64,000 nt of DNA from Climacium dendroides (taxonomy: Eukaryota; Streptophyta; Bryopsida; Hypnales; Climaciaceae): the NCBI GenBank assembly GCA_950106755.1, contig OX467089.1, forward strand, positions 28,377,345 through 28,441,344, written 5' to 3'. Below the pieces are notes generated by a model. The model had not been told where the DNA came from, did no database searches, and worked only from the letters and a program-made list of their open reading frames with translations. Positions 22,601 through 45,925 of this stretch are shown piece by piece (position 1 is the first letter of the stretch; the number at the start of each line of letters is the position of its first letter). The position numbers and the translations under genes are program-made.

Positions 22601-23564
22601 GAGAAGAATATCTTTTTTCAAAAAAGAATTGAACTAAGAGAAGTTGGAGAACCAAGTTAAATTAAATTTTCAAAAATTTGTTTGTAATTTTAATTCTTTA
22701 ATCAAAAGTTATGAAAAAATTATAGAGAGAGGTGTTTAAAAATGTCAAGGAAAATATCCCTTCCAACCCCTCTCTGAAATTTGTTCATAACTTTGACTAG
22801 AGGCTTTAAATATCAAATAGATTTTTGTCGATGAATGTTAATTTGATTTCCCAACTTTTCTTAGTTCAAAAGTTTTTGAAAAAAAATCATTCTTCTATGC
22901 TTAAATGAGGTTTGAAATTCTACTTCAAACACAATTCCTATATTTGACTTAATTATGAGCAATTGAGCTCATATTAATTTTCATTTACATATCCCACCTA
23001 GATTGTTTTACTTACTACCACCCCTCTTGTATATTAAGAGCTTGTTTTTTCTAGAACAACCCAAAGGTGTGAGTAGCCCATAAAAATCCGCCATCAGTAC
23101 CTCATAATGGGTAGTAGTTGTTCTTAGTTAATCCCTAAACATCAGAGGTCTAACCAAGCTTAAAAACTGCCTTCCTTTGCAAGTCCGAAAAATCAAAATT
23201 AGAGTAAGGTATGAAGATCTTAACCGTACAATATTGTAGTGTGCATGTTGTAGATGGTGTGGAACAAAGTTGGGGTCATTTGACCATATAAATTGAAAGA
23301 TTATAATGTTTTAGTGATGAAAAAAGGTGCTGAAATTTTCTTAAAAACACATTTGGAGGTGAAATTCGATTTCTAAACCTACTCAAATGAAAAAACTTTA
23401 AACTACAAAGTGAGTCAAAACTAGAATACATACAATTTGGTGAAAAAAAATATCATTCAAAATGAATCATTGTGTCTGCAAAATGGATTTGAAATCTTAG
23501 AAAACAGTGAAAAAAGTAACAAAAAATCACATCTATGACTGAACCTCCTTCTATTAAAATGCTT

Positions 23565-24065
23565 CTTAGTCAGTCATAACTTCTTGGATTGCTATGAAAT
23601 TTTAACCACTCAAACTAGACTAGTATGCTCAACTTCTCCAACAAGTTTTATTGGATTTGGACATTACATGAAGAAGTTATAAGCCGCCGAAGTTCATTGG
23701 AATTCACCAACGTTTGGATTTTGAACTTTGAATTGCTCCCAATCATTCGAAACAACTCGGATTGACATGAAAACTTTACCACAATAATTAGACTTCAGTG
23801 GAAACAAAACCCAACAAATTTGATTGAAAACAAACATTAGATTACAAAGATACAAGCCCCCAAAGTTGCAGCCATCAAATGCAATTTGGTGAGCTCAAAT
23901 TGAACCTGTGAACTTCGACTAGCTCCCAAAACTATTATACATCTTGTATTGATCTAAAAATTTTATCACACAAACTAGACTAGTATGCGCAACTTTTCCA
24001 ATAAGTTTTATTGAATTTGGACATTGGATGCAAAAGTTATAGCCCTTTGAATTTGACTTTTAGAC
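23565..24065. repeat. Degenerate ~175-bp tandem repeats, about 3 copies
   Basis: Three diverged units begin near 23570, 23745 and 23925. The first and third share CAAACTAGACTAGTATG, AAGTTTTATTG and ATTTGGACATT in the same order. The middle copy is more diverged. No coding capacity. It may be part of an old transposon or satellite. Confidence 0.55.
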
Positions 24066-25282
24066 TGTGAGGACGTTTTTCGTCCCCTATGACTAATTGC
24101 TCATCTGGAGCTCAATTAACTAACATCGCTCTTCACAATCTAGAATCTACGTTTTCTACTGATTGAGGTGCTATGTAACATTTCTTGGGATTCACGAAAC
24201 TGAATGAACAGTGTCTTCATTCATTGACTTGACCATCGTTCTTTTCTGTTGCCAACTCAACGTCCACCTAGGATCGGCATTTGCTAAAGAGCGAAAGTGC
24301 GAACACACACGATTCTCTTTCTAACAACCCCTAAAAGACTCTAGCTTAGCGCCAAGTGCAAAAGCGCCTTTATCCAAAAATGTAAACCATGTGTCCACAC
24401 TGACAGTCCTAACACGCGGGAAATTAAAGAACCATAGGTTTTTGAACTTTCCAAAGTTGTGCTGGCACAAGTAGTGCCAACTCGGACATACACATGCAAT
24501 CAATAGGTTGGCATTGTAAATCATTCCACACACACCCAAGTTAGCAACCTTCCCGTGGCCTCATTTTTTTTCTAATGTGTATTGTTCTAGTTTTTACAAA
24601 TCACAAGTTTATATGGATACTAATTTTATAAGTCACATTTTTGCACTCTTATGCTAGGATAAATTCTATATAAGGGGTACTTGAAAAGTCATGGTATATT
24701 TGATTTGATTTTTTTTATTTTGAATTTTTTAACCCTTAAATTCCATTCCAAAGCTACCATTTTCAATGCAAAAATATTGCATTGATTTTGCATTAAACTT
24801 GTATGAGAATATGTCAAGAAAAAATTCATAACTTCAACCAAGCAGATTGTAAGATTAGTATTCAAAGTGAAAAGAAAAAATTTGCACCTTGCTATTTTAG
24901 GTTTTTTAGACTTCAAATCCTTTTAATTGAAATTTATGAGCCAGAGAGTTTGGAGTTTAAATCATTGTGGTGGAGAATTGAGTTGAGAATCTAGTTTTAA
25001 AACTTTGAAAATCAAAAAGTGGCTGGCTGGCTTCTCACCCATAAGGTGTTGCTCTCTGGAAATGATATTCTGCTTTTATATGAGTCTATTTTGGTGACGT
25101 TTACGTAGTGTTTTGAGACCTTAAAGTATGCTGTTAATGGGCGTGCTAATTTCCAAGGTTTTGATTATTTATCATTAATGTGACTGTAATGGAACGAACT
25201 TATTCATGATTATTGAGACGTGCGTTTTGGGCACCTGGTTTTTGCTTACATCCTGGGTACTTATATGATTTGCTGCTCTAAG
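24066..25282. other. Intergenic region before the NAP1 fragment
   Basis: No gene is supported. I looked here for the missing first exon of the NAP1-like gene and found no convincing start exon. Confidence 0.4.
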
Positions 25283-26560
25283 TGCCGCAGACCGTGCAGG
25301 TGTGGTGAATGTATTGAAGGTGAGTATCAGTTCTTTCTCTAACCTCAGTGTTCTGCTGTCATTTGACTTCCCTCTTTTGGTTTAGGCTGTTTTCATCTGG
25401 TCCAAGTTACTGAAATCAAAAGTATAAGAATATCTATAAATTTTCAACTTGTTTCTTTGACCTCAGACCTTTGATTTCTGGAATTATATTACCATTTTTG
25501 TATTATGGTGGCAATTCGGTTCTGAGTGGTGGAATTTCATGACAAGCTGCAGTCGCTAGCGGGACAAGCATCTGGCTATTTAGATTCGCTTCCCAAGAAA
25601 GTGAAGCGACGTGTGGCAGTTCTCCAGGAGCTCCAGGTCGGTCTCTTCGGGACTCAGGAGGTCACATTGGAGAGTTCATTTGTTTAGGGTTTAGGAAGCA
25701 CAATTTATGTTTTGGCCTGCTCAATGTGGATAAAAATATTCTTCTGGATTGTATTACCATCTCAAGGAGTTTTCCCATTTGTGGCATACAGGCTGATCAC
25801 GATGAGCTCGAAGCGAAGTTCAATGAGGAGAGAGCGGCGCTTGAAGCCAAGTATGCGAAATTATATGAACCTCTTTATGTAAAGGTATGTAAATTTATCT
25901 TAATTGAGGAATAGTAGAGTACACTGGGCAGCTTCCGGCCTCACATACTGGTTTGGGGCTTGTCTACCTGATTCTTTCCAAACTTGAATTCGGAGGGTAA
26001 TTTTATAAATATCTGCTGTTGTTGCAGAGAGCGGATATTGTTAGTGGTGCTGTTGAGGTTGAAGCTGCCAAGGATGAAGCTCCTGAACCTGAAGATTCCA
26101 CGGCAGAGGGCAAGGAGGAAGGTGCATATCTCTTTGTACCAGTAGTATTTTTTAGGGTAAACGGTATAGCTCAGGCTTGAATGCCATTTTCTTTCTATTG
26201 TGCAAAGATTGAGGTCTTGCACGTGTTCTTATGGTTCTACTTTTCACTCTATTGTTCTTATGAATGTTAGAATGCTCTTATGCATTATGGTGGTAGCAGT
26301 CCTATTGTCCAGATTCATTACTGATGTTGTACGTACTTAAACCTTGTTTTGCAGTCAAGGGAGTGCCAGAGTTTTGGCTGACAGCAATGAAGACCCATGA
26401 GATTTTGAGCATGCAGGTATACTTGTTCGTTTGAGACTTTGGATTTACACTAACACCTAATTTCTTAAAGATCATATCAAGAATAAATACTTCGTTCATT
26501 ATTGGATTCAATTTTGTACCGACCTCCCTTGGTGTTCGCAGATTACTGAGCGCGATGCAG
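25283..26560 (+). pseudogene. Truncated nucleosome assembly protein 1 (NAP1) pseudogene
   Basis: NAP1 proteins are acidic H2A-H2B chaperones. Six exon-like blocks in order match the N-terminal third of plant NAP1: 25283-25319 (AADRAGVVNVLK), 25532-25636 (KLQSLAGQ ... [14 protein letters not shown]), 25792-25884 ([20 protein letters not shown]), 26028-26121, 26355-26416 (VKGVPEFWLTAMKTHEI) and 26542-26560 (ITERDA). Frames join except at block 2, where the base pair before the block is TG, not AG, so the acceptor seems lost. No start exon was found. Everything after ITERDA, the main histone-binding domain, is missing before the convergent citrate synthase gene begins at 27154. Codons inside the blocks are intact, so truncation may be fairly young. 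A functional gene with distant exons is unlikely because no room is left downstream. Confidence 0.75.
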
Positions 26561-27153
26561 GTATTCATAAAAAATTCTGAAGTAAAAGTAGGGCAGGCAC
26601 TCAAAATTTCCTTTCTATTAGGATGCACCGACTCATACCCGAATCTACAGTAAGTTATACAGACTTGACCTTATTTGAAATCTGCGTCAAGGGAAGGCTT
26701 CCTGTCCATTAGTATCTGGAGTAGTACAGATGCTGCAACAAGCTTCGTAAAATTTAAGCGTTACAGGCATGCAAAGATACGGAACACAGCTGACACGCGA
26801 AGATTTGACGACGTACTAGCAAGCTGGAAAAAAAAATGAAAAAGAATATTCCAGATTTGGAATGTTAGTCCACTTATATCAACCTCAATATAAGGCAGCT
26901 TTCTGTGTGACCTAAGTTCTAGAATCCAAGTGCAGGAACTGACACAAAATCTTTTGCCAAATCTTTTGTGTGAAGCCAGAGATCGTCTACTACTGAGACT
27001 CGATAGCTTAGGCAATAGAGTAACTCATCCTACTAATAGACTGCACTACAAGATACCATGTGTCGAATGCATGATTGAAAGATGGAACCCTCTAGTCACT
27101 CAATACACTTCCTCATTGAAAGGAATGATTGGAAATTGGGAATTGCAACATTC

Positions 27154-29963
27154 TCATACTGCTCCCGCCTGCCTGCGCTTCGTTGCGTTTGAGACAGTGA
27201 TTTTGCTACGTTTCTCAGTGTTTTCAGCAACAATACGGTTGCTGTTAGGAGAGTAATGGCGCAGCCACTCCCCTTGATACCACTGCACAATGGCAATACC
27301 AGCATTAGAAAAGTAGAAATAATAAGGCAAAAAATTTCATACTGATAAGGTCTTCTCAAACTCGCTTTTGTGGCCAAGACTATCAATACCATTTCGAATA
27401 TTAGAGTTCCTCATCCATCCAGAATGGCTTGCGTATGGTTTTCAGCAGGATTTGAAACAAAGTGCTGAATAAATCGCTAACCTGCTGAGGACGCATGATT
27501 TTTGTGTCAGGGTCGTCAATGGATTCTTTCCAGTGGGCAAGATATCCAGCCATACGGGGAATGGCGAAGAGTACTGGGAAAAACTCAGTTGGAAATCCCA
27601 GTGCCCTGCACGAATAGAGCCAAAAAACAAGTCTAAGAGGGTAGACGATTGGATAGATAGAGAAGCCAGACGACTCAAAAAGTTATTAGAAACGCAAAAG
27701 GTTCTAAGATTTAAGCATTTGACCATACAACAAGCAAAGCAGAAAAGCAATAAACGAGCAAAAAATATTCAATCCAAGCAAAAGCATCTGATTGTGCTCA
27801 ACACAACGGACGTTCTAAAAGCAATTCACCCTAGCGACTTAATGTAAAAGTGACAAGCTTCTTCTCCTGAGCAATATTGTAGGGATTACCTATGAATTTT
27901 CCGAAAACCAAAATCTAGGTATATGTTATCTAATCACTTGCCAGCACCCAACATTTTCGAAGGTTAGCCGGAAAAAAAACGCACAACATCTAACAAGTTA
28001 CGCACCTGTAAATGACACCCGAATAGAAGTCAACATTCGGGTATAATTTCCTCTTTACAAAATATTCATCCTCAAAAGCAGCCTTCTCCAAAGCAACCGC
28101 CACCTGCATGCAAAAACAAGAACGTAAACGTCACTCTCCGGTTAGTCACAACATTAGGCATCCTCTAGTCAGAAGGTAAAGAATACAAAAGCAATCAAAA
28201 AATGGAACTACACCAATTTGTCCCAGATCGATCTGACCTTTCCAAGAATGCGCACAATCTGCTTGTCCCTCACAGCTTTGTTTGCGTACAAATCTTGACC
28301 CTGATAGTACACCAAAATTTCCAAACAACATATATCAGCCTTGTTGACCAGTTGAAATACCCAGATGATTTGAATCAATGAGATCTACATCAACAATCCC
28401 CACTCGGTAAAATCTCGAGAACTCGCATCTCATGTGCAAGAATCGTCCATCCAACCAAAATGTAAGATCGCATGAACTTCAGAGTCAATGAGAAAAAACT
28501 ATGTCTCTTGCAACAATCCCGCATGACTATAAAGAGGGTATTGTACAATCTGCACATGCTTCGCACAGAATAAAATACGGAACTAAACTAAACTATTCTT
28601 TACATCAAGACAAATCACGAAAGTTAAGAAGTTTAATATCTGATAAATAAATTGTACTTGAAGAGCAGGGTTGGCATCTGGGTGAAAAGACGACAGAGCA
28701 CAGATGGATCCAACTAGCATTCCCATGGGATGAGCGTCATGTGGTAGCGCAGCTAAAACATTCTGCTCCCACATGAGCAGATGCAGAACCCATCACATGT
28801 TACCATAGTGCAGTTTCACAGGTTAAGTCTGGAAGTCTTAAATGCAGATTCGTGAACAAAATCTCAAGAAGAGACAATCAATTAACACTGAAGTGTAATT
28901 ATTTTTTTAAAAGCTTGACGACTCTGTATTACAATCTAGATAACAAAATGATTTGAAGAGGAAAACAAGACACACCAGTACTCCTTCTGGAACAACAGAG
29001 TGCTGGGAAATAGAAGCCTCCCAGTCAGACAACTGATCTTTTGTCGGTAAATTGACGTACACTGCAGATACCAAACTTCGTCAAAACATCACATTATATA
29101 AAAGATCCCTAATGTGATCAGCATCTAATATTCAAATTGACTGGCCTCACAAAAAATGTAAAATGAGGGATTCTGATCTCAGAATTTACTAATACTCATT
29201 GAAGCAAAACCCAAAATCGCGTTTTCCAATGACACTCAGACATATAGAAGTATGACCCAAATAATGAATAACAATGAGGTCGTCAAGGCCCTGTCAATCA
29301 CAGCTATATCCATCACCAGTGTGTGTTCAGAAAAACAGACGTGAAAGACACTTACTCAAAAGGAAAGCAACCTCAGGAAAGGTGCTCTTTTCAGCAAGCT
29401 CCTCAATGGGATAACCTCGGTATCGCAAAATACCCTTGTCTCCATCAATGTATGATATTGTTGAGCGCACGGGTGCGGTATTCAAATATCCTGGATCGAA
29501 CAATCTAAGTCCATTTCCATCTCCACCAGCAGTAATCTGCAGGAAATCACACCACCACTCGTTAAACAGCCATGTGACAAGTTATGGGAGCTGTCGGATG
29601 TCTTAAGACTTTTCTAGTACGTCATCAAATATCCAACAAACGTATCTCTGAGTCTCTCACCACGTACAAAACAAAACAAATCACTGCAACGATTAAAAAT
29701 TAAACTCAACCTCTTACCTTCTTGAAATCTGTAGCTTTTACTATTCCTCCTTCACTGATTCCAATTTCATACTTCTTCCTAGTCCGATTGTCCACGATTG
29801 TCAAAGTCCCTGCTCCACTTGAAAATTTTGGTGCGGTTTGAGTTGATACAGTGAATGCTTCAAGCATTGGAGAACAAGATGAGCTCCCTGATTCTAAATG
29901 ACCTTGCAAGATCGATAGTCTCTTCGAGGCAGACATCTCTGAGGCGCTATGAGCTTGCTCCAT
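27154..29963 (-). CDS. Peroxisomal-type citrate synthase lacking its catalytic core
   Basis: Plant peroxisomal citrate synthase condenses acetyl-CoA and oxaloacetate. Exons: 29965-29718 (ATG at 29963), 29536-29356, 29061-28976, 28762-28658, 28300-28214, 28103-28006, 27605-27482, 27282-27154. All are GT-AG, in frame and open, giving 351 aa against about 510 usual. Residues 15-23, RLSILQGHL, are an exact PTS2 (RLx5HL). Family blocks [44 protein letters not shown] and [12 protein letters not shown] are present, then the protein jumps to [20 protein letters not shown]. About 160 residues between them, carrying both catalytic histidines, are absent from the introns. The catalytic Asp (D260 in NVDFYSG) remains. 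An alternative donor after ILGK (exon 28300-28238) also keeps frame. It cannot be an active synthase; it may be a pseudogene or make a non-catalytic protein. I cannot exclude an assembly error. Confidence 0.85.
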
Positions 29964-29965
29964 AT

Positions 29966-30760
29966 CTACAAAACAGAACAGATCAGACACCAAGAGTCTC
30001 GTGTGAAAAACAGTTTTGATAAGAAAAGCTGAATAGGTCCTCTTCACTAATTGTGACGCCAGCAAACAGACAAGAGAAACAGAAGGCTACATCATAAACA
30101 ACTTTTTCATAAGTAGAGACAAACCAACGAGAGACCTGCCATCCAACACATTAAGTGAATCCATCACTATAGTCCTCCAATCTAAACTCAGTGAAGATCT
30201 CACTGTCTTCAACGTCCAAGCATATTCTCATAATAATGATCTTTTCAAAGCCATTTTCAGGTTTCCGTTGTTATACTTCCCAAGGAAAGTGTCCAAGTAT
30301 TCTCGCAGAGGACATTAGGACGTTTCGCACATTTCCTAAAGATCAAAAGTACATACTAACTCCCTGAGATTTATGTTCCCTATCCAACCTTCAGGCTTAT
30401 TTACATTCTTATATGCTCAATTATCTGAGTCCTTCAATCATCATTTTCCCTCCCTACCCCGTTCAGTCCTGTCTATTTTGTTCGCAGAAATTTAGCATCC
30501 ATCGATCCTCCACAGCCAACAATTAATGTCAGTCAAAAACTTCATACCGCTCAAGCTGAAACAGCAACAAAGACAGTAATAGATAAAGGTCAATCACTCG
30601 TGAACATCTGCCTAATCACACTATGAATGAAGTATTTCCGACTAAAGCTGGAACCAGAACCAAAAATCTACAGGAATACACACTAATCATCAAACTCCGC
30701 CGATAAAAAACTTCTATTGCATTGGAGAATTCAACAATGACTTACATCATCCGTACACCA
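29966..30760. other. 5' flank of the citrate synthase gene, no gene seen
   Basis: Upstream of the first coding exon the minus strand has a good acceptor (TTTTGTAG at 29966-29973), so one or more 5' untranslated exons probably lie further upstream. I cannot locate them. Confidence 0.4.
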
Positions 30761-30814
30761 ATGATCAAAAAGCAGAGGTAGCAATCAGTGAAAAAGAACT
30801 CCCGGCTTTCCAGA

Positions 30815-31420
30815 AATATAAACTAAAATTGCGCAACAAGATTTCACTCACGATTATGCCAATTGGGAAAACTATAAACAAACTCGTTACACTCACCTGC
30901 CATGACCTGAAATAGTAAAATTCGTTCACTACAAAGAGAAGGCAATCGCATACTTCCAAATTCCCAACCTAAAAGAAATGAACCTTAGCAGCATTAAAAA
31001 TTCAACTAAACTCGAGCTGAAACTCCGATCAATACAACTCCGTCGGAATTAAAGTCAACCGCCATTCTCGCACCTAATCAAAATAACAAATTCTAAATTC
31101 AAGAGCTCACAGAGTTTCCAGTAGATAGTATAAAATTGCGAAGAAAAACCAACACGATTACACTCACAATTACGTAAACTATGAACAAATTAGTTACACA
31201 CACCTACCAAACCCTGACGTCGTTAAATTAGTTTTCTAAGAAAAGAAGGCGATCAAGCTACCAATTCCGATATCACACATCCCAACCTAAAAACAAGAAA
31301 AACACAGCAGCAATAAAACTATTCTGCAACTCAGGTTGAAACTCCGATCAATAAAACTTCGCCATCGAAGAAAACTAAACAGTCATCCTCGCGCCAAATC
31401 GAAAAAAACCCCCAAAAAAA
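30815..31420. repeat. Degenerate ~307-bp tandem duplication
   Basis: Two units, about 30815-31120 and 31125-31420, share ordered blocks: AAAATTGCG, TTACACTCAC, AACTATAAACAAA or its variant, CCCAACCTAAAA, and GAAACTCCGATCAATA. They lie between the divergent citrate synthase and methyltransferase genes, so they may affect either promoter or 5' untranslated exons. Confidence 0.6.
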
Positions 31421-31427
31421 AATCCAC

Positions 31428-31690
31428 AGCTCACGGAGTGCAAAACAATCATACACACAAGACAATCATACCAAAAGCGCATCAATCCTCTGCATAATCG
31501 AACTCCTGCTTCACAAAACTAAACCGCCATTCTTGCACCTAATTTTTAAGAAATAAGAAAATTCAGAGCTCACGGAGCGATCAAATACACAAGACGATCA
31601 TAACACCATACCAAAAGTACCTCAATCCTGTTCACGATCGTGCTTCTGCTTCACTGGAAATTTTTCGAAAAAATGAAATAAGAAAGCCGG
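31428..31690. repeat. ~135-bp tandem duplication in the divergent intergenic region
   Basis: Units at about 31428-31560 and 31566-31690 share CTCACGGAG, ACACAAGAC, ATACCAAAAG, TCAATCCT and CTGCTTCAC in the same order. They continue the repeat-rich 5' region of the citrate synthase gene. Confidence 0.55.
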
Positions 31691-32291
31691 CTCAGATATC
31701 GCACCTGTTAATAAGCCTGAAGGCGCTGTGGCAATCTGTGTTTGGCAGCAACACACGCAATTGAAATCAGATGCAGAGCAAAACGTCAATAAGATGACAG
31801 AAGATGCAGAAACAGAAGCAGGCAGGGAAATTCTTCACTTGTTGATAAGACATGCTGCTAAACACGAAACAAGGCTCCGCCATCGCAGGAGCTTGCTCTC
31901 CTTGAAAATGAAAGCTCCACTTCCGTGTGAGTTGATTCTGCTCCACTATCCCAGCCAGACCGCGGCCCAACCTTCCGCCATTTTGGACTTCACCTAAATC
32001 CAAAATGCAGCAACCGACACCACAAATCGTGCTCCACAATGTGGATTGAACTCAAGCTGTAGGAATTGTAAAATACCGCATTAAGATGTGGGACAGACTT
32101 CATCTATTTTCAGGTAACCCTAACCTCATGCGACGATGACGGCTTGACTTACACTTGCTCTGCCGCCCTTCCCCACCTCCTTCTTCTTCTCTTGCACCGA
32201 CTCTACTTCGGCCATCGAAATTCAACTGCGGACTGCCGTGTACATGCTCCAAATTTCTCGAATAGGGCTAGTTGTGGATATTTTGCTGAAG

Positions 32292-35200
32292 ATGGCGGAG
32301 AGGGTCCTGAGGTCGAGGAGCGCGCAACGAGGGGAAACTTCTGGCGGTGAAGCGGAGAAGACTGCTCCCAGCGTGCTAGCAAAGGACGGCGAAGCGGAGA
32401 AGACTGCTCCCAGCGTGCTATCAGAGGTAAGTGGGATCGATGATGCGCAAAGTCTACTGCCCTGAGGTTACCGTCTCGGGACCGAGAGGGCTCTCTCGGA
32501 GAGTTGGGCACGGACAACCATGTCTTCTAAAAAGTATGTGGGTTCATGATTGCGCGAAGTCCGCTGCCCTGAGGATACCGTCTCGGGACCGAGAGGGCTC
32601 TCTCGGGGAGTCGGTCACGGACAACCCTGTCTCGTGAAAAGTATTTGGGTTCATTATTGCGCAAAGTCTGCTACCTTGAGGTTACCGTCTCGGGACCGAG
32701 AGGGCTCTCTCGGGGAGTCAGGCACGGACAACCCTGTCTCGTGAAATGTCCTTCTCAAAATATAAAGAACCTTCGATAGAGCTACATGATTGGTTTCGGT
32801 GCATTGGGATATAGTAACAAATTCTTTTTAAGCTTCTAGTTGCGAAATGCTCGAAGGTAGGAGACAGTAAAGTATCCTCTCGGTCCAGAGAAGGCTCTCT
32901 CTAGGGGTCTGCCTCAACGCACACTCTCTTCTGCATTTGTCTATGAGATGTGAGGTCTTAGATGAGAGCCTTGTCATAGCGTCAAATGCAGCACAATATT
33001 GATGATCGGAGCTTCATATACAACATCATAAAAATTAATTCTCAATCTGATTTCAGTCCATGCGTAAACACTAATGACCATCCAATACCGTCTCGGGACC
33101 GAGAGACCTTTCTCGGGAGGCCTAGTTTCGGAGAATGTGTCTTGTTTGATTAATTTCGAAGATTCTAGCTAAGGTGGAGCTTTGAAGGTGCTGAATGCTT
33201 GGGTTGTGAACGTCATTGGAGCTTCACTAGATGTTTATGGATTTATTTGGATCATTATCTTGAGCTTGAAAAGTGATTATTGTTAGTTTGAAGCCTTGAT
33301 ATGTGCAAAGGGTAGTGTCCTTTGAAAACCCTCTCGGGCTCGAGAGGCCTCTTTCGGAGAAGACTATTTGAAACACCTGATATTTGCATTTGTCCAAGAT
33401 AATCACAAGTAGGCCAATGATTTGTTTTGGATTGTGTTGTAGATTGAAGCTCTAGTGGCCGAGGAACATCCAGTAGTACTTATTGATGTGGTATCTGAAG
33501 CAATGGTGCATGATGGACGCCCCGAAGACTCAGAAGTAATGCCAATTTCTCACCAAGTGTCTGGATCTATATTGCAAGAGGGTAGTCTCCAACCGGAGAT
33601 TATTTCCGATGATGAGTTAGAGGACTATGAGATTCAAGGAGTGCCCAAGGATGCAATGGAAGATGACATCAGGCGGTCCCAAAAGCTTGACACTGTGTCC
33701 ATCCTTCATGGATTGAGATTGACGTCTAATGATACTTCTCGGATGAAAATTCCTTTATGTAGATTGGTTCCGATGCCAATGGTGCGACCTACTCTTGCTT
33801 GTGACTTGACTTTGCTAGAAAATCAATTCAGTGGAGGTTACGAGGAAGGAGCTAGAGTCTTCTATGTTTCTATATCAAACGAAGATGGCCAGAGTGGTGT
33901 TTTCACACCTGCCGAGAAGGACGAGTGGGGACCAATTTGGAATGAAATCAACCATGATTTCAACACTTACCTCATGTCACAGGCAGCATTGCGACATTTG
34001 GTGGATCACAAGTTTTACGTATGCGATGGAAATCATAGAAGAATTGCATGGATGAATCACATTATGCGATTGCATGCAACAGAGAAAATATGGCACATCT
34101 CTGTGGATTCAATCGTTTTAGACACACGGAATCGAATTGGTTTGACGATGCAGGCTATGCATGATATTAATATGTGAGTGTTCCATTCTCCACTATGCTT
34201 TCATTTTTATGATGTACTCAAATTCTATGAATTGTAATATGATATAATATGATTTTATCCCATGGTGTGATAGGCAAACAGAGAGTTATCATGTGAAGAC
34301 CAATCTCGTACACACGTTATATCGAGTTCAGAAGTATGGTGTCATGGACATTGAGAAGTTTAAAGAACTTCTATCACCGGAAGATGTGAACACCTGTTTG
34401 ATGGTTACCCGGTCTAAGTGGTACTCTATGTCCCTCGAAGTCTTCACATCATTCATTTTCAAGGTATTACTTCCACCATATTTTTGTATTGATTTCAAGT
34501 GTTTTTATATGAATTTTTATATGTCGATATAAAAATGTTTATGTTTATGTTCTTTTCGTGTCTATTTGCAATTTTGTAGCAAGACATATCTGCAGCAGCC
34601 GATATTGCTGTTCGTAAATACAAAGAGGACACTCCTTGTGAAGAGGTGACGTCAGATGGTGTTGCAGCCGCAATGAGGAGCTCTATCAAGGATTCCACCA
34701 AGAAGTTTTATAAAAAAATGTCAAAGATGGTGGCTGTTGCTAATCCGGCTCTGGGAAAAGACTGGCTTCTTGAGGTATGCCTAAACCATCATTGATCAAA
34801 TCTGCTCATATCTTCATACATGATGTATATTGAGTTCTAATTCTCATGCATTGCATTCTTGCAGATCCAAAGGCATTGGAACCTTTTTGCAACTCCGGAA
34901 TTAACCTTAGAAAAATTACAAATGATAGCCACAACCTCTACAAGTGCGGAAAACAAGATTAAGTGGCTCAAGTGGATGAATGCATCCAGTCCTACTAGAG
35001 AGGCCCGACGCTTTCCTTCTCGTCCTGTCAATGAAGAGAAATTACTGATTTTTTTGGCAAAGGCCTCTTGGTATGTTGGGGTAAGTTTTCTTTTGATAAA
35101 TGTTTAATTATATTTTATTTCAATATCCTTCAATTATATTAGTATGATTGTGTATAACGTACAGGAATGACCTAAAATTGATGTCTAACTTTGTATTTAG

Positions 35201-37845
35201 ATGGAAGAGGCATCATGCGAAATGTTCGACAACATTGTTCAATCTGACAATATTCCAATCAACATGTCCGTTCCTGCCGAGCCAGAATCATTGATGGAGT
35301 ATATTGAAGGTTGGAGAATGAAACTTTGGGAGACAGCTTATACAGGTGTTTTCAAGGGAGGAGATACTTTTAAAAAATCCGATAATTTCAAAGAGTTCAA
35401 AGGGGCTATGCTCGCTGTCAAGCGCTTGATATATAGGTTTGAAAACTTGCCATTTTACTTACTTATATTTTGAGGCTGATGTTATAGATTACAGGCACAT
35501 CTAGATGAACTAGCTAGTAGGACGTCAAATTGTAGCTTAACCAATGTAGCTTTCATTGTTTAATGTAGTTCTTGTCTTTCATATTCTTGGAATAATTATG
35601 TTGGAATCTCTATGGACTTTATATACTATTTTATTTAGGTAATTGATTTTGAATTTAATATGAATAGGTATTTCAAGTTTGAGTTGTATGCCAAGAAAAC
35701 TATCGAGAAGAAGGATTTGCCACCTTTTCTTACAACATGGTTAGATAGATCATCATCGGATTGTATGTTCTCGGCTTATCAGCTACGAAATTGGACGACT
35801 CCACATTTCCAAGCTTGCCCATGGTACTTGGAATGCAATATAGGATGTACTCTTGCTGAAGAAGAAGCTCTCTTCAAGACATTGACAGAGAATGCTATTA
35901 CGGAGCCGGAGTTCGATGAATTTGCTGGATTGGACCCGGAGGCCAAAGCCAAAGCTATAATCAGACGAGAAGTAGCTGACAAGAAAAAAGTGGATCGATT
36001 GGAGGAGACAAAGAAGCGGATGGAAGAGAACAAGAAGAAGCGCTTGGCCAAGAAGGTTGATAGAGAAGAGGAGAAGTCCAAGAAAAAAGGCACAAAACGA
36101 AAGGCAGAGGAGTCGGTGCATGAACCAGCAACAAGTGGCATTGGAATGAAAGATACTTCATCCGGATTTTCCCTCACACAGGATCTTTTAGTACATGGTC
36201 TGACAACAACCATTCAAAATTTTGGCCCTATACCTGATATTGACGAGTGCATTCTCAACTTATCGGTGGAGAGTCTCCCGAGTGATAATAAGGCTTTTGA
36301 TGCTGTCTTGACATTCTTAGACATGGTAAGTTTCTATTTCGTATACTTTTAATATTGTGTTCCAATTTGTTGTTAAGTAGTTTCCAAATTCAATTAGAAT
36401 TCAAATGTGCTTTATTACATATTATTTTAGTTTTTTATTCATTTGGAACTAACGATATTTAAACATTAATGTCTTCTACAGCATTCTAGCGATAAGGATA
36501 GATATTTTGATGGTATGTTAAACACGAAGCAGGCAGTGGACCTCATCATCGTGGATGTCCCCGAAGGCCTTCATGTTCCAACCGTTTCAGCTCCGCCGAG
36601 CCCTATTCCAGAATGGAATGAGTTCAAAAAAGATTCATTGGTTCCTATTTTTGACTTTGCTCAGGAATATCTCCATGACAAGGGGGGCCTTCTTATCATG
36701 TATCCAGCAACTTCTGTTCGTCACAGAAGCTTTCTTCTTGGTTGTTGTGAAACCTACGGATTTAGAATAATCATGACATGGTTAGGGATGAATCATCTGC
36801 ATTTGACATCGCCAGCCGATCCAAAGAAGACGGTATGATTAATCGTAACCTCATATTTTATTTCCTTTGATTTACAATTGATTTGCATTTGTGCTACTTT
36901 CTAACTTCTGAATTTTTGCAGACGATGCGATTTTCTATCTCTCTTCTTGTGAGGGAATCTGTGCCAAAGACTGATATTGATTTTCCATTCCAACATGTTC
37001 CTTCCCATGAAGAGGTAGGTGTCAATATTGCTCGTGATGACATCTTGCAAAACTTTTGCAACCGCGATGATGTAACCATGAATGGAGACATTCCGTGGCG
37101 AGGTCCTCGGGAAAAATCTCGACACTTCATGCAAATGCTTATAGAAGGGCTATCACAACCAGGCGATGTTGTTGTTGATTGCGCAGCAGCTACAGGTAAT
37201 TCCTTCTTTGAATTTAGTAATTGTGGGACTCTTATGTAATTTGAAATGTGTTCATACTATATTTTTCTTATCTGTGTTTGGTTCATTTCAGGTTCAACTA
37301 TTCAAGCATGTCGTGCAACTCGACGACATATACTAGCCTTTGAGGAGGATAAATTGATATTTGATGCCCTCATTGCACCTGTCATGCGCAAAACTATGGT
37401 ACCTCCCGAACCAACCCAATCAACTCCTTCAACATTTGACGTGGATGAAGAAGTGGTTGTTCCTGATCGTATCGTGAAGACAGCCCGATTCAGTAAGTAA
37501 GTCTATCTTGCTATTGATGCATTTTTTGTTATATAATCAATTTGGGAATTTTTGTCTAATTTCCTGTTTCTTTGGATTTAAAGGCAAGCCCAAAAAGTGA
37601 GGAACTTCCAGCATGTGCCTTTTTTTGGAAGACCAGGATTTTTTCCAAGTCCTCCCAAATCTTTTCACCTACCTGTGTATGCTGAGGCGTTGTCACGAGA
37701 CTTTGTGGCAATGGATCCAAATCCAACTTCACGAGCACGTTCAGTGCAACCTCGAGCTTTAGAATTTATAGATGATTATGCAATAGAGACAGATTTGGAT
37801 TCATCGGCTACAGAGGATAGTTCAACGTTGAATAGCTCTATTTGA
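32292..37845 (+). CDS. ParB-like domain / DNA amino-methyltransferase-like protein, 11 exons
   Basis: Exons: 32292-32426, 33443-34173, 34274-34463, 34580-34774, 34865-35080, 35201-35436, 35668-36325, 36482-36832, 36922-37195, 37292-37496, 37584-37845. All are GT-AG and frame-consistent, giving about 1150 aa. The start is chosen for its AAGATGGC context; an upstream in-frame ATG is at 32244. Residues 238-250 (VCDGNHRRIAWM) match the ParB/sulfiredoxin-fold box. Residues 660-718 are a Lys/Glu-rich, coiled-coil-like stretch ending in a likely nuclear signal (KKKGTKRK). Residues 806-816 (VDLIIVDVPEG) fit methyltransferase motif IV and 990-998 (DCAAATGST), then FEED at 1012-1015, fit the AdoMet loop. 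Motif IV before motif I is the beta-class order of N6-adenine/N4-cytosine enzymes. DVPE is not the usual DPPY-type tetrad, so catalysis is uncertain. The gene has no stop or frameshift. It lies head-to-head with citrate synthase, with palindromes in intron 1 and a transposase gene downstream. Substrate unknown. Confidence 0.85.
32333..32422 (+). repeat. 45-bp in-frame duplication in exon 1 of the methyltransferase-like gene
   Basis: Two adjacent copies of a 45-bp unit containing GCGGAGAAGACTGCTCCCAG encode GEAEKTAPSVLAKD and GEAEKTAPSVLSE. The repeat keeps frame and is nearly identical between copies, so it is recent. It lies in a short, probably disordered N-terminal region. Confidence 0.85.
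32431..32757 (+). repeat. Three ~109-bp tandem repeats with palindromes, in intron 1
   Basis: Units begin near 32439, 32548 and 32655 with a TGCGC(A/G)AAGTC block and include CTCGGGACCGAGAGGGCTCT, GGGCACGGACAACC or its variant, and TGTCT. Each holds one copy of the CTCTCGG/CCGAGAG palindrome (32471-32490, 32579-32597, 32686-32703). They begin right after the intron 1 donor of the methyltransferase-like gene. Confidence 0.85.
32471..33348. promoter_or_regulatory. Cluster of six CTCTCGG/CCGAGAG palindromes
   Basis: Palindromes at 32471-32490, 32579-32597, 32686-32703, 32876-32894, 33089-33106 and 33329-33348 all approximate CTCTCGGnnCCGAGAG, most followed by a second CTCTCGG half. They lie in intron 1 of the ParB/methyltransferase-like gene. 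Three more copies are at 38272-38289, 38411-38428 and 43970-43987 and none was noticed elsewhere in the window. They resemble binding sites for a dimeric protein or subterminal transposon repeats. The role is inference. Confidence 0.6.
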
Positions 37846-38235
37846 TGTATTGTATACACTACATCACTGTTATTGGGTGCTTAGCATTGACCTCATGATG
37901 TTGTCTTCATTTTTTTGATCATTGATGCTTTGATTACTTTCAATGTCGAACTCAGATTCTACATTTTTGAAATGGAGGCATTATTTATACATATAATTGC
38001 ACTAGTATAGAGAATTTTGTTCAACTCTATATCATATATAAGGCCTATTAGTACTCTGTGTTCATATGAAATAATTGTATTACTCAGAATTCTCAATTTG
38101 TCATGGGGCTTCTCGTGTCTAATGATATTTCAATGATGTATTATTCAAACTTAATGACCTACAATTAGATTGGTCTGAAAGGTTTTCTCCATTGCATTCA
38201 ATTTGTAAACACCTAATGAAACCAAGTTAATTATT

Positions 38236-38497
38236 GGGGATAGGGCGTATGCCCCCCTCCCCTCCCAGATGCCTCTCGGCACCGAGAGGCTCTTCGGGGC
38301 ACCCCCAGTATGCGACACGAGCGGGACCATGACGAGCACCAGTCAGGGTTCCCGAACTCAAATAAAAAAAAATTGGGGACAGGGCGTATGCCCCCATCCC
38401 CTCTTAGATGCCTCTCGGCACCGAGAGGTTCCTCGGGGCACCCGCAGTATGCGACTCGACTAGGACCATGACGAATACCAACATAGGGTTCACAAGA
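38236..38497. repeat. ~138-bp tandem duplication with perfect palindromes
   Basis: Two units, 38236-38373 and 38374-38497, start GGGGA(T/C)AGGGCGTATGCCCC and each contain CCTCTCGGCACCGAGAGG (38272-38289 and 38411-38428), which has perfect 8-bp arms around CA. Both continue with TATGCGAC and GGACCATGACGA. The duplication lies between the methyltransferase-like and transposase-like genes and shares its palindrome with the intron 1 cluster. Confidence 0.85.
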
Positions 38498-39801
38498 ATG
38501 ATATAAAAATTCATGTTTGGACATTACCTGGGAGTTTCGGATTGAAGGTGTACGATTGGATCTCTTTGTTTGGGTCTCTTAGTTTGGGGTCGCACGATTA
38601 GGTCTTGTAGTTGGAAGGGTTGGATTTCTAGTTCGGAACAAACTTGTGTGGTGTTCTAGATTGGGCATGTGGAGGTTTATTATATATTATTTTACATTTT
38701 CAGAATTATCGTGTTCTTGAATTAAATTGGTGAATCTCAGTTGTACTTCAAGGCTTATGTGAATTGTAAAATTGAATTCGGTATTTGGAATTATTGTTGG
38801 AATAGAATACATCTAACTATAATCATTAGATAGGAACTACTGCTTCATTGTCAGTGTATGATCCCCTATAACGTTGGTATAGTTCCTAGTCTTCATGTAT
38901 TTTGGAATTTTCCTGTTGCAACTGGAAGACATGTTGTATGTTTCCTATTAATAAGTGCTTTGTGATTTCTGGTCGTCTTACTCTCCATATTCTTTCTGAA
39001 GTGGATTTATGATTTTAATACCATTGTCCTATTAGCTTTAAAGTGGAGGTGTTTGTGGGCATTTAATAAACTTCTTCTCCAAGTTTGTTAATACTTGTGC
39101 TCAATATAAATTCCCATTGCCACATGGTGAGCAAGTTATCAATAACAAAAAATTGTGCTAGGTAATATTTTCGTACAGGACATTATCAATTCAAACGTCT
39201 AGCATCCATCACTGGACATTGCGATCTACTAGACACTACAATCTAACTGACACTATATACTTCCAGACACAATCTGTCGTGATGATTAAAACCCTGATCT
39301 CGTTGAATGTATGAGCACCACATTACCAAACTCCTGAACTAAGCTCCCTGACTCATATTGCACCGGCTTCTTCATCGTACCTGTTCTCATAATCATTGGT
39401 GGTTCTTTTCCTTCTTTTCGTCAGTCATTAAAGCCAATGACCGTCATGATTGTTGCCGTTGATATACAAATCTAGTCTAAAATATTAAATGGTTGATTCT
39501 CATTGAAATGAAATATTGTACTTTTAATGTTAGTTATTGTTGAGAGCGCCAAGTGAACATCTCTTAATCTTGCATTCTATTTTTGTATATTTGCACGGAT
39601 TTCATTTATTACAACTCTAGCGGTCCTCCCTACATTCTCAGCGGATTTACGTGTTCTAGAGGGTGTTTCGGTTAATACCAAAGCAACTGAAGCAGTGACA
39701 CTCAGGTTCACTGAGTTCCTTGTCATATGATTATTGTAGCTCGTGCGGTATGCGATTGATGCAGTTTTGTGCTTCAGAAGTAGAGTGCATGAAGCGTCTA
39801 A
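38498..39801. other. 5' flank of the transposase-like gene, no gene seen
   Basis: AT-rich sequence without a supported coding region. It should contain the promoter of the downstream transposase-like gene. The codon just before the chosen ATG is TAA, so the ORF starts at 39802 unless an upstream exon is spliced in. Confidence 0.4.
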
Positions 39802-42800
39802 ATGGAATACAATCAAATGGCAACTGTTAGGGCAAATGGTCAAGGGGTTCCAATTTCTTTTCCGATTGGTGATTTTGGATACGCTGTTGTGAGTTCCTCT
39901 CGACTAAGTGCTCGCTTTCTTCTTACTGAAAACTCGTTAGATATTGATGAGGAAGTTTTTTATAGTTCAAGTGGTGAACTCACGCATACTATAGGTCAAG
40001 AGCCGATTGTCTCTTCCCCACTGAGGCAGTGGCATCTGCATCCGGGTAGGTATTTAGCATATGGCTTATCCAAATCCATGGTTGGAGCACCAACTCTAGA
40101 AGGTACCACTAAAATATCTAGCACTAGTACTTTTGAGACAGCGTTGCTTAACACTGTAAAGATCGAGCCAAGTGTTGAGGTCATTGCCATTGATAGTGAT
40201 GATTCTGATGGTTCGTCGCCACCCTATAAAGTTCTACGACCAACTCTGTCTTTAGGAGTTCATGGGGCATCCTCATCTATCTCGCCTACTCCAGTCTTAG
40301 GGACACCATCCTCAACTTCTCGTGGATCCTCTATTATTTCATGTCTACAGAAGTTGTGCTACGCCAAAGGTTCTAGGAATCCGTTTAAGAAGGTCGATTG
40401 GAACTCAATTAGAGTCTGTGTAGTCCAATTTGTTCCACCTTTGTTCAATGGTGATGTGATATTTGAATTACCACCCGTCGGAGATGTTTCGGGAATTAAC
40501 AGTCAGGCTAAGCTTCTCACTGGAATGGAGAAACGCTACGATGGTCACATTTGGACAAATCTTCATACGACAAATATAAAGAATGTAGACGGTTTGACAT
40601 TTCGGTTGGCATCTTGCGTGGGCCACCTACGATGCGACAACCCGAGTTGTGACTACCTAACTCGAAAGCACCATGTAGCTCTTATCAACGAGACTGAATG
40701 GGATGGTTGTTCTCCTGCTCCATTTGAGGTTTGTGCCATTCCTCCTATTGGTTCCACTATCACATGCAAGATTTGTGCGACTGCTCCATTGTGTATTGGT
40801 AGTTGTCTTGCGAAAATATATTATGTAGTTGGGTCACAGGACATGACTCGGGCTTGTATTCATTTCGGTATTCACAACCACCCTGTGAAAGATGGAGACT
40901 GCCGGGACTCCAAGGAGAGAACTCGGTCCTTGATATCAGACCAAGTTGAGCGGAACCCCTCTGGAACAAATTCCGCTATTGTCCTGGAGGCTAGTAAGGA
41001 GTTCCTTGGAGAGATGCTACTTCGAGCCGAAGGAGCTACGCCTACCCCATTCGGATTACAAGAATTAATGCCTGTTTTGGAGAAATGCAAATTCATGAGT
41101 TCCCCAAGTATTCGCAATGAAGTTAGTACATTCAAGTACTTCCGCCGCTTTGGAGTCATGGACAGCATCACAAAGCTTTGTGGCTGCAGCAATTGGGCTT
41201 TTGTACAAGAGAACAAATTCCCTGGACAGGGATCTGACTCTGACAAAGTCTTCATGTTCAAAATGTCGGAGGTTGGCCCTGGAAGTGGCGTAGACTTGGT
41301 ATCACGTATGCAACCTGGTGGTGACCTTGAGGACGCATGGATCATGTTTGATCATGTTAGGCGAGTGAAGCTCTGGACTACAATTGCGTGTCATGTTTAT
41401 GACACGACCTATTGCCGAGTTATGACTATTGCGGTTTGCGATATGCAATCAGAAGATGTAGTTGCCCAATGCGACTTCTGGAAAAACTTAAACGTCGTGA
41501 TGGGTAGACATGGAAACACCTTGCCCTATTTTAAAGGCTTCATGGTTGATTCGGCACAAGCAAACTGGAATGCGGTGCGCATTGTTTACGGAAGTGGTGA
41601 CCCAACAGAGCCCATGCCCAATCGAGAACGTACATGTTTATTTCATTGGACTCAGTCAATGGAGAAACACACGAAAGCAGACATTCGCAGTGACCTTCAA
41701 GACCAACATCGAAAGTTGTGCAAACAATATAAGGATGCAAATTCCTTAGCACAGGCAGAGATTAGGTTTCATGCAATTCGAACGTGGTGGCATTCATCTG
41801 GAGCCACAACCGAAGAGGGGCTTCGCCGTTTGGAGTTGTGGTTAGCGTTTTGGCACTTCCGGTATAGACAATGGGGAGCATTCATGGACACTGTAAGATT
41901 CTTAATCATCCTATCCTTCATTTGTTTATTTTGCCAAGCTAGGATTCAGATTTTTAGGTTATCTTACATCATTGCTATTCGTTTCTTCCATGAATGCTTC
42001 CTGTCTTCAATTATTGAAGTACTTCATGTAACAACCCTGCCCTGTAGACGTTCAATCAAGGAAAGAGTGGTACTCTTTATTTGTAATAGCTTTAATCCAT
42101 GCTCCACAAAACAGGGACTCACTGAAGATGAACTCGGGCTTGTTCCTACTTGCAACCTCGCGGAGACCGTACATAACAAATGGTTGCAACAATCTGGAAA
42201 ACGTGGCTCTGATTTGTATGTCGCCACTGTGGATGACTATGTTCGGGCGTTCATGCAAATGGTTAGATATTACCAGTTTCTAAAAGGTGAGAAGCCGGGA
42301 ACTGGTCTAGGAAAAGAAGAGCTCTTGCTTCGTGTAGCATAGAGATATGCCCAACGTACCGGTAATCCGAAAGGATTGAATGATGCCATGGCATCTGTAC
42401 CAAGTGTTCAAGAGTACTGCACTAGGAAGCCCCATTTGGAAGGCGAGGAAGTTTTTGGATCTGAGAAGCGAATGCCCAATCTTCCACCTGGTTCTGAATA
42501 TGATTCACATCGTCCCGACAAAGTGAATTTCTCTCGACCCCGTGTTGGAACAAGGGCCACCCTTGCACCCACATCGATCATTTCCTTGGATCGGATTTCT
42601 GAAGAATCATGGCCTGTGACGCATGAAGATTATCCGGATTTGTTGGAATCACCTAAGACAAGGTCAATTCCTTCAACTGAGGTGGCCTCCCATGTGAGGA
42701 CTGTTCAAGAAATAGTTTGTGATGAGTCTGAATGGCATATTGCCCGCTTGCCTAAGACGTCTTCAAAGGCATGTTTTGCATTGCAGGCCATTACGCGAAA

Positions 42801-43581
42801 AAAGTGTGTTGCAAAGATAGTGCAAGGCAATAGGGGAACAGCTGCACCTACATATACCGACAGCATGGACAACTATAAGAAAAATAGGATTAAGAGAATG
42901 CAATTCTTTTTCTGCAATGATGATATATCGCGGTGCGTCAAAGGTTCTCGACGGAAATGGGTTTTATCAAAACCGGAAGTACCAAACATATGGCCGGTGC
43001 AAGTTGAAACCAATCTTACGCCCAAAGAGATCCTAGATCTTCAAAATGCAGGGTTCTGTCTTCCGCAGCGTCTTGAAATTTCCCCTCGTAGGCTATTTGG
43101 AAATCATGATCTGCCACCTGATGTTTTGGGACTTCAAGTTCCAGAGTCACTTGCAGAGCACCCTAGCACACGGTCAGGAAAGAAGATTCGGAGGAATCCA
43201 AAAGCACCTACAACAAAGCAAGCAAACAATTGCGCCTCCGCACTTACAATGAAAGCAGTGGTTCGTGAAGTTACTATGGTACCGCATCCAGGCTTTGGAT
43301 GCATCATTGCCCTGGACTCAGGTACACCGCCTGCCATTGAACGTTACATGATCACTGTAAATGCATTCCCTAAATGCACTTGCCCTTATTTCAAGGAGAT
43401 GGCAACAAAGGCTCTAGGAAAAAGAGGGCAATGGGCTAATTGCAAGCACTTGTACTTTTTGTTCACTGGAGTTTGCCAATTGGATGCAGAAGTAGATCTT
43501 TTTATTCATGCTCCAAGCTTTAGCTTTAACGAAGTGAAATGCATACTTCAGAGTGGTATCTTGAAGCTTAAATCCAATTAG
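39802..43581 (+). CDS. SWIM-finger DDE transposase-like protein with one in-frame stop
   Basis: One frame runs from 39802 to 43581, broken only by TAG at 42340-42342. A 222-nt GT-AG intron (41893-42114, a multiple of 3) lies inside and joins FMDT to GLTEDELGLV. Spliced, 772 codons precede the stop and 412 sense codons follow it. Order: Ser-rich tail with a SUMO-interacting-like motif (EVIAIDSDDSD, 126-136); a Cys/His-rich region (CDNPSC, CKICATAPLC, ending HNHPVK) like FLYWCH/FAR1-type DNA-binding fingers; an RNase H-like core with candidate acids D534 (VYDTTYC), D583 (FMVDSAQANW) and E714 (TCNLAETVHNKW) and a CLFHW insert motif; and a C-terminal SWIM finger (CTCPYF ... NCKH, near 43375-43450). 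This fits a MULE- or KDZ-like transposase. The open frame beyond the stop suggests a very recent nonsense change or readthrough. It is 2 kb downstream of the ParB/methyltransferase-like gene. Confidence 0.82.
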
Positions 43582-43942
43582 TATACATTTCTACTTCTTG
43601 CCGGTTGGTGCTAGCATATTGTAGTGTAGCTTTGGATGATGTGCTCCAAACTTGTTTCATGTAAGAATTGTAGTGAGACTAAAAGGGCCACTACTTCATT
43701 TCAATTGTCATTTGTCCATTGCACCTTGCACTATCATGCATTCGTGCATGATTGCCCATCCACGCTCTCTAGTATGATTTGTATATATATCTGGATATAA
43801 AATATTCATAGAGGGTTGTTTAGATTGTTATTGATAACTGCAACAAAATAAAATGGCCTTCTCTCGTCCCAATCCACTAAAAATAACCTTGCCTGAATTC
43901 CCTTTTCACAATGAATGGAGTAGGACAACGGCAAACTTCTAA

Positions 43943-44014
43943 ATGCATAAGGTGACCACCTCTAAGGTTCCTCTCGGTACTGAGAGGTAATCTAAAGGTG
44001 GTCACCTTATGCAT
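43943..44014. repeat. Nested palindrome at the 3' side of the transposase-like gene
   Basis: A perfect 19-bp inverted repeat, ATGCATAAGGTGACCACCT (43943-43961) and its complement (43996-44014), encloses the smaller palindrome CCTCTCGGTACTGAGAGG (43970-43987, one mismatch). The whole can fold into a stem with an inner stem. Its position about 360 bp past the stop codon and its shared inner palindrome suggest an element terminus or a transcription/recombination signal. Confidence 0.85.
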
Positions 44015-45925
44015 TCAAAATTCTACAACATTTATCTAAACTTGCTATGGTTGTAAACCCATTTTTTATTAGCACTATCTCATGCTAGCATTGGTAGAAG
44101 TTATCTTCCCTTGCAATACATATGAGTACTAATTATTGATGACATGATTGCAAACATAATTGAAATGCATTATTATCAATAGGAAGTTTGGCAACATGCT
44201 AATGCCTTTTATATGATAAATTGGTAAAGTGGTCGCGCATGGATGAACTTAATTAATCACCCTAAACCCTATCACATGGAAATGATAGCCTAATTCCAAG
44301 CCTTCTAACTACGGTTGTTCAATAGTTTAAGTAAAATTGTTCACCTAACCATACATTTAACAATACAATAAGCAGATGTCCATCCAGCAAAAGAAAGTTA
44401 CCCTAAACCCTAAGTATAATCCTCCTAAAAAATTTAACAGATATTCTATAAACAGGCCATGAAGGCAATCATAAATACCCTAAACCTTGAACCTTCACCC
44501 TAGAAGTATGCCTTTCTTTTACCTTTAAAGGAGCAGTTCTACTAGTTCACAGTCTAAGGTCCACAATTACATTGAGATCTTAAAACCACAGCTATAGGGG
44601 GCACACCTAAACCCTAAAACCGTGGTGAAAGGTTATATTATGTGGCTTGATACCACGGTTATAGGTTCACACCCAAATAATCTTTTTGGTGTAGATTTCG
44701 GGTCTCCTGTCTTGGATCCACGGTGATAGGTCCATTTTCACGGTCATGGGGGCATGAATATAAAGTCATCATGTTCTACTTTGTAAAACTTTGGAAGGCC
44801 AATCCTTGAAGAAAACAAACTCATTTCTCCCTCCCATGCCGTTGATCTGGATATGGGTAGGGATACTATACACAGACAAATACGATATAATATAGACCCG
44901 ATCCGGATACAAGAATCAAGATATAGTTCAAATACAATACAAATATAGTACGGTACAGATATGAGATACGATATATAGTTCAAATGCAATATAAATACAA
45001 TACAATGTAGATACAAAATATGAGGTACGGATACGGATATATCCCATATCAAATGTTATCCCTAGCCCCACCTGAAAATTAGAGAAGGGGGGGAGAGGGG
45101 GAAACGAGAAATTTAATATACAAAAAATTTGAGCTTATTGCCTTATTGGTGGGAGGTAGAAAAAATCAATTTCATTTTTTTTTGGGAGTGGATAGGGAGA
45201 CATTCTCACTATCCACTCAAAAGATAGGCCACTAAGCTTTGGCACATGAACCAATAAATTGATATAGCATTAAAAGACCGATCCCCTACACAAATTGGTT
45301 TGTCATAATCCCACCGTAGAGGTGTCCAATGTCATTGTTGAAGTTATTCACCAACAATAACAAATAATTCTTCTAAGTTCAATGAATATAACCCTTCCCT
45401 CTATGTGGTCAATGGTCATAAAATATTTTCACACATATTCAAATATTAGTCCACCCTAAACTTTTGAGGGTAGACTTTTTAAATCCCCAAATTTTTAGAC
45501 TGGATTTTTTATTACCCCCAAAGTATGTTGATTTATGGAAAAAAGGCCCAAAACTTATAGTCGACTTTTGAAAGTAAACACCCAAATTTAACAAAATAAA
45601 TAAATAAATAAATAAATACCCTAAAACCGCACCAAATTACAGAAAAAGGCCCTAAATCCATGCTCCATACTCCAATTCCACGCTCTACGCTCTACGCTCG
45701 TATACTAGCTTCGTTGATGGCAGGCAAGTTAATTGCCCTGCATTCCATCCTAGCGCTTTCATGTATGTCATTTCATTTCTCTTTTTTAATCCAATCCAGC
45801 TAGGGTACTACTAACTTAACTTTAAAGTGGCAGCTAGTGCGTGTGCATGTGTGTACCTAGGTGTTTAGGAGAGAGAAAGGGACAAGTGAGGAGGAATTCT
45901 GATTTTGAATGACAGATCTCTCGGG
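44015..45925. other. Intergenic, low-complexity and CCCTAAACC-like patches
   Basis: Scattered CCCTAAACC-type words occur at 44270-44500 and 44610-44620 but not as a telomere array. ACCACGGTTATAGG-type blocks recur at about 44580-44740. A low-complexity run of ATACAAATAC/GATACGGATA words spans about 44860-45060. No gene is seen. Confidence 0.5.

Follow-up and report, generated by a model that had tools for sequence, protein, structure and literature searches.

The window analyzed here, a 64-kb stretch of Climacium dendroides DNA, contains a whole copy of a 23,417-bp DNA transposon (positions 22300 to 45716, + strand), the right part of which carries a gene for a ParB-fold/methylase-like protein, a transposase gene, and nine copies of a 16-bp palindrome. 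It is best read as a Mutator-type DNA transposon, or Mutator-like element (MULE). We propose, with moderate confidence, that the conserved core of this MULE comprises the transposase, the ParB-fold/methylase-like protein, and the private palindromes and that the protein recognizes the element's own copies, likely countering silencing. The sequence itself demonstrates the element together with its ends and the number of its copies, establishes that gene and palindromes are linked in two deeply diverged lineages, and shows the protein to be under selection. An earlier interpretation made from the letters of the window (the sequence-only reading) had suggested a transposon that recognizes and methylates its own sites. 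There is good support for a transposon that has its own ParB-like protein and its private palindromes; recognition of the sites is inferred, and methylation is unsupported.

Extent, ends, and copies of the transposon

The sequence-only reading had placed the unit at positions 32292 to 44014. These boundaries were wrong, as ends common to independent copies, together with a 10-bp target site duplication, set the transposon at 22300 to 45716. The duplication (ATGGCAGGCA) occupies positions 22290 to 22299 on the left and 45717 to 45726 on the right, and it borders terminal inverted repeats (22300 to 22321, + strand; 45695 to 45716, − strand) that are short and imperfect, 14 of their 22 bases matching when counted by eye. 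A search of the genome for further loci, advised by the same reading, recovered more copies with common termini and target duplications. With a 1-kb intergenic probe from the window's lineage, here referred to as lineage A, 54 aligned pieces were obtained, and scores were computed for 40 of the 47 candidate places. Ten copies (c1 to c10) were read, and all reach one right end, equivalent to window position 45716, c10 doing so after an additional minisatellite stretch. None of them ends before 38 kb, the outcome that the sequence-only reading had named as evidence against a joint unit. The right modules of the ten copies are 97.7 to 99.0% identical to that of the window, and the left end, window 22300, was located in c1 and c9, which were read further left. 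In all six elements with both flanks read (the window, c1, c9, c8, e15, and e6), a 10-bp target duplication is present, with one mismatch in two of them. Copies c2 and c3 share a right flank and were counted as a single event; their common insert and flank (C41, 12.15 and 12.71 Mb) represent a segmental duplication or an assembly duplicate. The right end itself is adjoined by a minisatellite of the CTCTACGCTC type (window 45660 to 45716), whose length varies among copies. Telobox-like AAACCCTA occurs in this end at positions 44264, 44405, and 44609, and three more are found, on either strand, in the remaining window.

Genome-wide, patterns of the two ends searched with up to 2 mismatches gave 106 matches for the right end versus 3 for its reversed control and 111 for the left end versus 0. 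The 100 left and 100 right ends listed form 72 left/right pairs of 6.2 to 35.7 kb, mostly of 15 to 24 kb, and leave 28 left and 29 right ends unpaired; since the right end at C38:23365460 serves two pairs, one of these (31.5 kb) is probably false. Inside pairs lie 37 of the 40 scored places of the A probe and 39 of 40 transposase places (the best 40 of 580 candidates). Among the matches listed, 37 pairs contain the A probe, 26 contain the gene of a second lineage (lineage B, described below), 1 contains both (the doubtful 31.5-kb pair), and 8 contain neither, so that the ParB/methylase gene or neighboring DNA is found in 64 of the 72. The A probe is intergenic DNA, and the gene is therefore presumed for unread A elements; the window and all ten copies have it, and it was partly read in e21 and e178. 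Among the eight pairs with neither match, two have a transposase match, and one, e6, is a deletion form of 6.2 kb that retains parts of the ParB/methylase gene. The transposon has probably been active recently, and the alternative of a domesticated version, which had been offered earlier, was not borne out, the element being multicopy and mobile.

Two genes and a private palindrome in two lineages

The transposase gene (39820 to 43581, + strand) has two exons (39820 to 41892 and 42115 to 43581; 1179 codons) and follows the ParB/methylase gene in the same orientation, as had been read. It contains one internal stop in the window, and one other copy has both genes open. The protein is an RNase H-like DDE transposase of the IS256/Mutator kind, with a predicted core fold resembling that of the ISCth4 transposase, and it terminates, as in Mutator-like elements, in a SWIM-type zinc motif, CxC-x19-CxH (CTCPYFKEMATKALGKRGQWANCKH; 43375 to 43449, + strand); this pattern was read directly, and a Pfam search gave no match over it. 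The 10-bp target duplication, DDE core, SWIM motif, and terminal inverted repeats all agree with the Mutator superfamily. According to a survey of MULEs across eukaryotes (PMC6446971), these elements have 8- to 11-bp target duplications and in some cases lack terminal inverted repeats; SWIM motifs, extra open reading frames, and gene capture are further features that the present element shares with them. That survey names other extra reading frames or motifs (PMD, SET, and an ovarian tumor gene), and the words methyltransferase and methylase are absent from its text.

The ParB/methylase gene (32292 to 37845, + strand) comprises 11 exons and ten introns, all GT-AG, and its product of 1150 amino acids confirms the length of about 1150 residues proposed earlier. 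It is open in 4 of 11 copies (the window, c1, c5, and c9). Structure prediction, which had been recommended for both proteins, agreed with their assignment: exon 2 (33443 to 34173, + strand), which holds a CDGNHRR box, adopts in the model a ParB-like fold, with KorB among the nearest folds. At the level of profiles, the ParBc family PF02195 was absent from the matches of 77 members at an E value of ≤1, and ParB-like phrog_1033 gave only a weak match (E value of 0.19). Exons 8 to 10 (36482 to 37496, + strand) encode a domain resembling beta-class amino-methylases.

A search of the window with CTCTCGGNNCCGAGAG, allowing ≤3 mismatches, found nine sites of the 16-bp palindrome (site form CTCTCGGGACCGAGAG) versus 0.51 expected, and nine were reached in none of 100 shuffles. 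Their placement, all on the + strand, is as the sequence-only reading had described: six lie in intron 1 of the ParB/methylase gene (32473 to 32488, 32580 to 32595, 32687 to 32702, 32877 to 32892, 33090 to 33105, and 33331 to 33346, the fourth being degenerate), two lie between the genes (38273 to 38288 and 38412 to 38427), and one lies beyond the transposase (43971 to 43986), at the center of an 84-nucleotide inverted repeat (43937 to 44020). All nine are within 32473 to 43986, and there are none elsewhere in the 64 kb. The nine sites are kept in the window and in each of the ten A copies, c4 having a tenth past its end. Exact palindromes number 150 in the genome, with 0 for the control; of 50 exact sites listed, 45 are in paired elements, 3 lie no more than 7.3 kb from an end without a partner, and 2 are elsewhere.

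Lineage B is represented by e15 (C38:16.315 Mb), whose right part is 80 to 87% identical to the window and whose ParB/methylase gene, in inverted orientation, has diverged deeply, with protein identities of 53 to 70% by aligned piece. Elements e16 and e155, read over the gene and the array side, belong to the same inverted lineage and are about 87% identical to e15. A B-lineage probe returned 41 rows (best 40 of 184 candidates), from which four at 65% identity, representing lineage A, and one second piece were dropped; of the 36 remaining places, 27 are in pairs, and in all 27 the gene is opposed to the direction of the element. The B-lineage gene is accompanied by palindromes in all three elements read, with 9 sites within 2 mismatches in e16 (0.02 expected), 8 within 3 mismatches in e155 (0.21 expected), and 6 within 3 mismatches in e15 (0.17 expected; best form, GTCTCGGGACCGAGAC), four of the last six standing in repeats spaced 191 to 223 bp apart. 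These arrays adjoin the 5′ end of the inverted gene, and their flanks do not align to A intron 1. A chance origin of the palindromes is ruled out by the window count and by the B arrays, which are likewise above expectation. In gene orientation, the site center is GA in 9 of 9 sites of e16, 7 of 7 of e155 (≤2 mismatches), and 4 of 9 of the window. The 84-nucleotide inverted repeat keeps its arms in e15, with a different center. At C38:16.09-16.78 Mb, seven paired elements of 15.2 to 15.5 kb with a near-identical B gene stand 70 to 115 kb apart in alternating orientation, a series that may be an array formed by amplification or inversion of a chromosome segment or may come from the assembly.

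Comparison of c9 with e15 over 1040 codons of the ParB/methylase gene gave proportions of synonymous (pS) and nonsynonymous (pN) differences of 0.785 and 0.225, respectively, with synonymous sites saturated, and the gene is therefore held by selection. Near copies show no codon-position bias, and hence this claim refers to the A-B comparison only. The transposase in the same pair has a pS of 0.257, a pN of 0.064, and a ratio of nonsynonymous to synonymous rates of 0.21 (1170 codons). The contrast between the two genes indicates that the history of the ParB/methylase cassette differs from that of the transposase; the cassette may have been exchanged and turned round between lineages, or the reverse.

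In public data, 129 homologues of the transposase (120 of them listed) and 108 of exon 2 were found, and a search with the whole protein gave none among 7,988 scored candidates at an E value of ≤0.001. When those listed entries whose longest contig is at least 10 kb were compared (53 for the transposase and 50 for exon 2), four longest-contig sizes were identical between the two sets, and 400 shifts of the list yielded 3 matches in total. Both genes are therefore very probably on the same contigs elsewhere, a probable linkage in other genomes. A virus origin was rejected, as none of the 49 stretches that the ParB exon alignment matched in viral_contigs is a relative.

Recognition, silencing, and other possible roles

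Traces of host silencing were sought in the window and nine further A copies (all but c3). C-to-T or G-to-A changes account for 713 of 903 variants and affect 25.6% of CG, 28.4% of CHG, and 7.4% of CHH sites, with any A/T change at 1.5%; this excess is likely a trace of plant-type cytosine methylation. Inside the palindromes, 10 such changes are found versus 22.0 expected; 1.5% of 5,000 random sets of comparable segments were as low, and ten slid controls gave 1.0 to 2.4 times the expectation. Because the sites were selected by sequence, this low decay is suggestive only. A wider reduction of C-to-T decay across the palindrome-rich intron 1 was not seen, CHG and CHH changes being higher there.

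The reading that we favor is that the ParB-like protein would bind the palindromes as a dimer, as ParB does on parS, and would in this way locate the members of its own family and hardly any other DNA. The loaded protein would then, most likely, spread along the copy and prevent or remove host silencing by cytosine methylation, so that the transposase could be expressed. The methylase-like domain would probably bind S-adenosylmethionine (SAM) or a partner, with no need for an active methyltransferase. Three observations weigh against this reading: the exact palindrome is absent from e15, a different inverted sequence occupies the palindrome's position in the right-hand hairpin of that element, and e6 has no palindrome site despite its gene pieces. 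A more detailed form, which we put forward only tentatively, is that a nucleotide-gated clamp loads at the private palindromes and slides over the copy, shielding it from cytosine methylation or stripping it, with the former methylase domain as a SAM sensor or methylation antagonist and with protein and sites exchanged between lineages as one cassette.

Several known kinds of system are close to this arrangement, VANC of VANDAL elements being the nearest working example. The element carries 16-bp palindromic sites together with the gene, as in ParABS systems, and unlike bacterial ParB-parS, Noc, and KorB, its protein lacks a ParBc Pfam match. The palindrome is also unlike the parS sequence. 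To our knowledge, the transposons for which sequence-specific anti-silencing has been described are one group of Arabidopsis elements. These are the VANDAL MULEs, whose VANC protein, according to the reports, binds repeated motifs in noncoding parts of its own family (for VANC21, the 9-base YAGTATTAY) and induces methylation loss (PMC5735166, PMC10398659). Shared with VANDAL are a Mutator-type element, an extra gene beside the transposase, short private motifs repeated in introns and in intergenic and end regions, and host cytosine methylation as the opponent. The site here is, however, a 16-bp palindrome, the protein is differently built, with a ParB-like fold and a methylase-like domain, and VANC function has been shown experimentally, whereas anti-silencing here is inferred. 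If the favored reading is true, this would be a second, differently built anti-silencing protein, in another genome, and self-recognition would have been invented repeatedly by transposons; a ParB-type clamp working on the DNA of a eukaryote would moreover be a rare case, and the protein might serve to mark or demethylate chosen DNA.

It is conceivable, if rather unlikely, that the protein acts through the palindromes mainly on transcription of its own gene, as a repressor or activator comparable to the KorB-type relatives of ParB, with no role in silencing. Six of the nine A sites are inside intron 1 of its own gene, the B arrays flank the inverted gene on its 5′ side, and KorB is among the nearest folds. 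On the other hand, the sites are numerous, as in e16, and in lineage A some are found between the genes and past the transposase as well, which in our judgment exceeds what an operator usually needs.

Self-methylation, in which the fused domain is an active (or altered) N4-methylcytosine or N6-methyladenine methyltransferase that marks the palindromes or the element, whether to protect it, to time replication, or to count copies, is also unlikely. The domain matches phrog_3008, a phage DNA methyltransferase family (E value of 1.1e-7), and PF01555, the N6_N4_Mtase family (E value of 7.9e-6), the latter at 26.4 bits, just below the cut-off of 26.7, and over profile positions 163 to 217 of 221 only. 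The motif I position reads DCAAATGST in the window, where the other elements have NYTAATG (e15), DCTAATG (e16 and e155), or DCATATG (e6), and the stretch past it, ACRAT.RHILAFEEDK, is kept in the elements read. The catalytic motif IV of amino-methyltransferases is [DNS]PP[YFW]; this position reads DVPEG in the window, e16, and e6, GVPEG in e15, and DVLEG in e155, and thus the motif is replaced and its aromatic residue missing in all five elements read. Self-methylation of the sites is unsupported for this reason, and methylation by the protein is doubtful. ParB folds fused to N6N4-methylases are reported to be frequent in phages, and sulfiredoxin is named the commonest eukaryotic representative of the ParB-CTPase fold (PMC12704722). 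Those fusions share with our protein the two kinds of domain and the link to mobile elements; here, in contrast, an intron-bearing gene with an altered catalytic motif lies in a DNA transposon of a plant-like genome. Retrotransposons of dinoflagellates and charophytes with DNA methyltransferase genes (PMC5890265) and fungal DNA transposons with TET/JBP genes (PMC12730594) likewise carry a DNA modification gene, which in those elements encodes C5-cytosine methyltransferases or dioxygenases, and private palindromes were not seen in the accessible parts of these papers. A literature search, with most subscription papers outside its reach, returned no paper joining Mutator-like, ParB, and plant, and nothing in the titles and abstract openings that we recognized as this system.

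ParB clamps can bridge DNA, and the elements are very large, so a helper that joins distant ends, or that couples transposition to replication or chromosome segregation, might be considered, and it would fit the presence of the gene or its neighboring DNA in most pairs. We regard this as improbable, as the sites are away from the termini and the window has none within 10 kb of the left end. It is very improbable that gene and repeats are passengers, picked up a single time and of no use to the element: cargo fragments, variable left arms, and unbiased near copies would fit, but strong purifying selection between lineages, the 64 of 72 pairs, palindromes kept in nonaligning flanks, and probable linkage in other genomes all argue against it.

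Left arm and captured fragments

The left arm (22300 to 32090) is, by comparison of copies, exchangeable. It contains, with ends approximated by eye, an NAP1-like captured gene fragment (25770 to 26410, + strand) and a captured gene (27150 to 29970, − strand) that we take to be citrate synthase-like from comparison by eye. The latter had seemed complete, and functional metabolic cargo was considered and rejected: the frames lack a middle part, and the gene is therefore a fragment. Copies c8 and e178 are without the stretch bearing these two pieces, c6 differs left of 32085 over the approximately 1.6 kb read, and e21 has a 2.2-kb deletion. Outside the transposon, a frame on the − strand of the window (12117 to 12410) resembles, by eye, a host aminopeptidase N gene.
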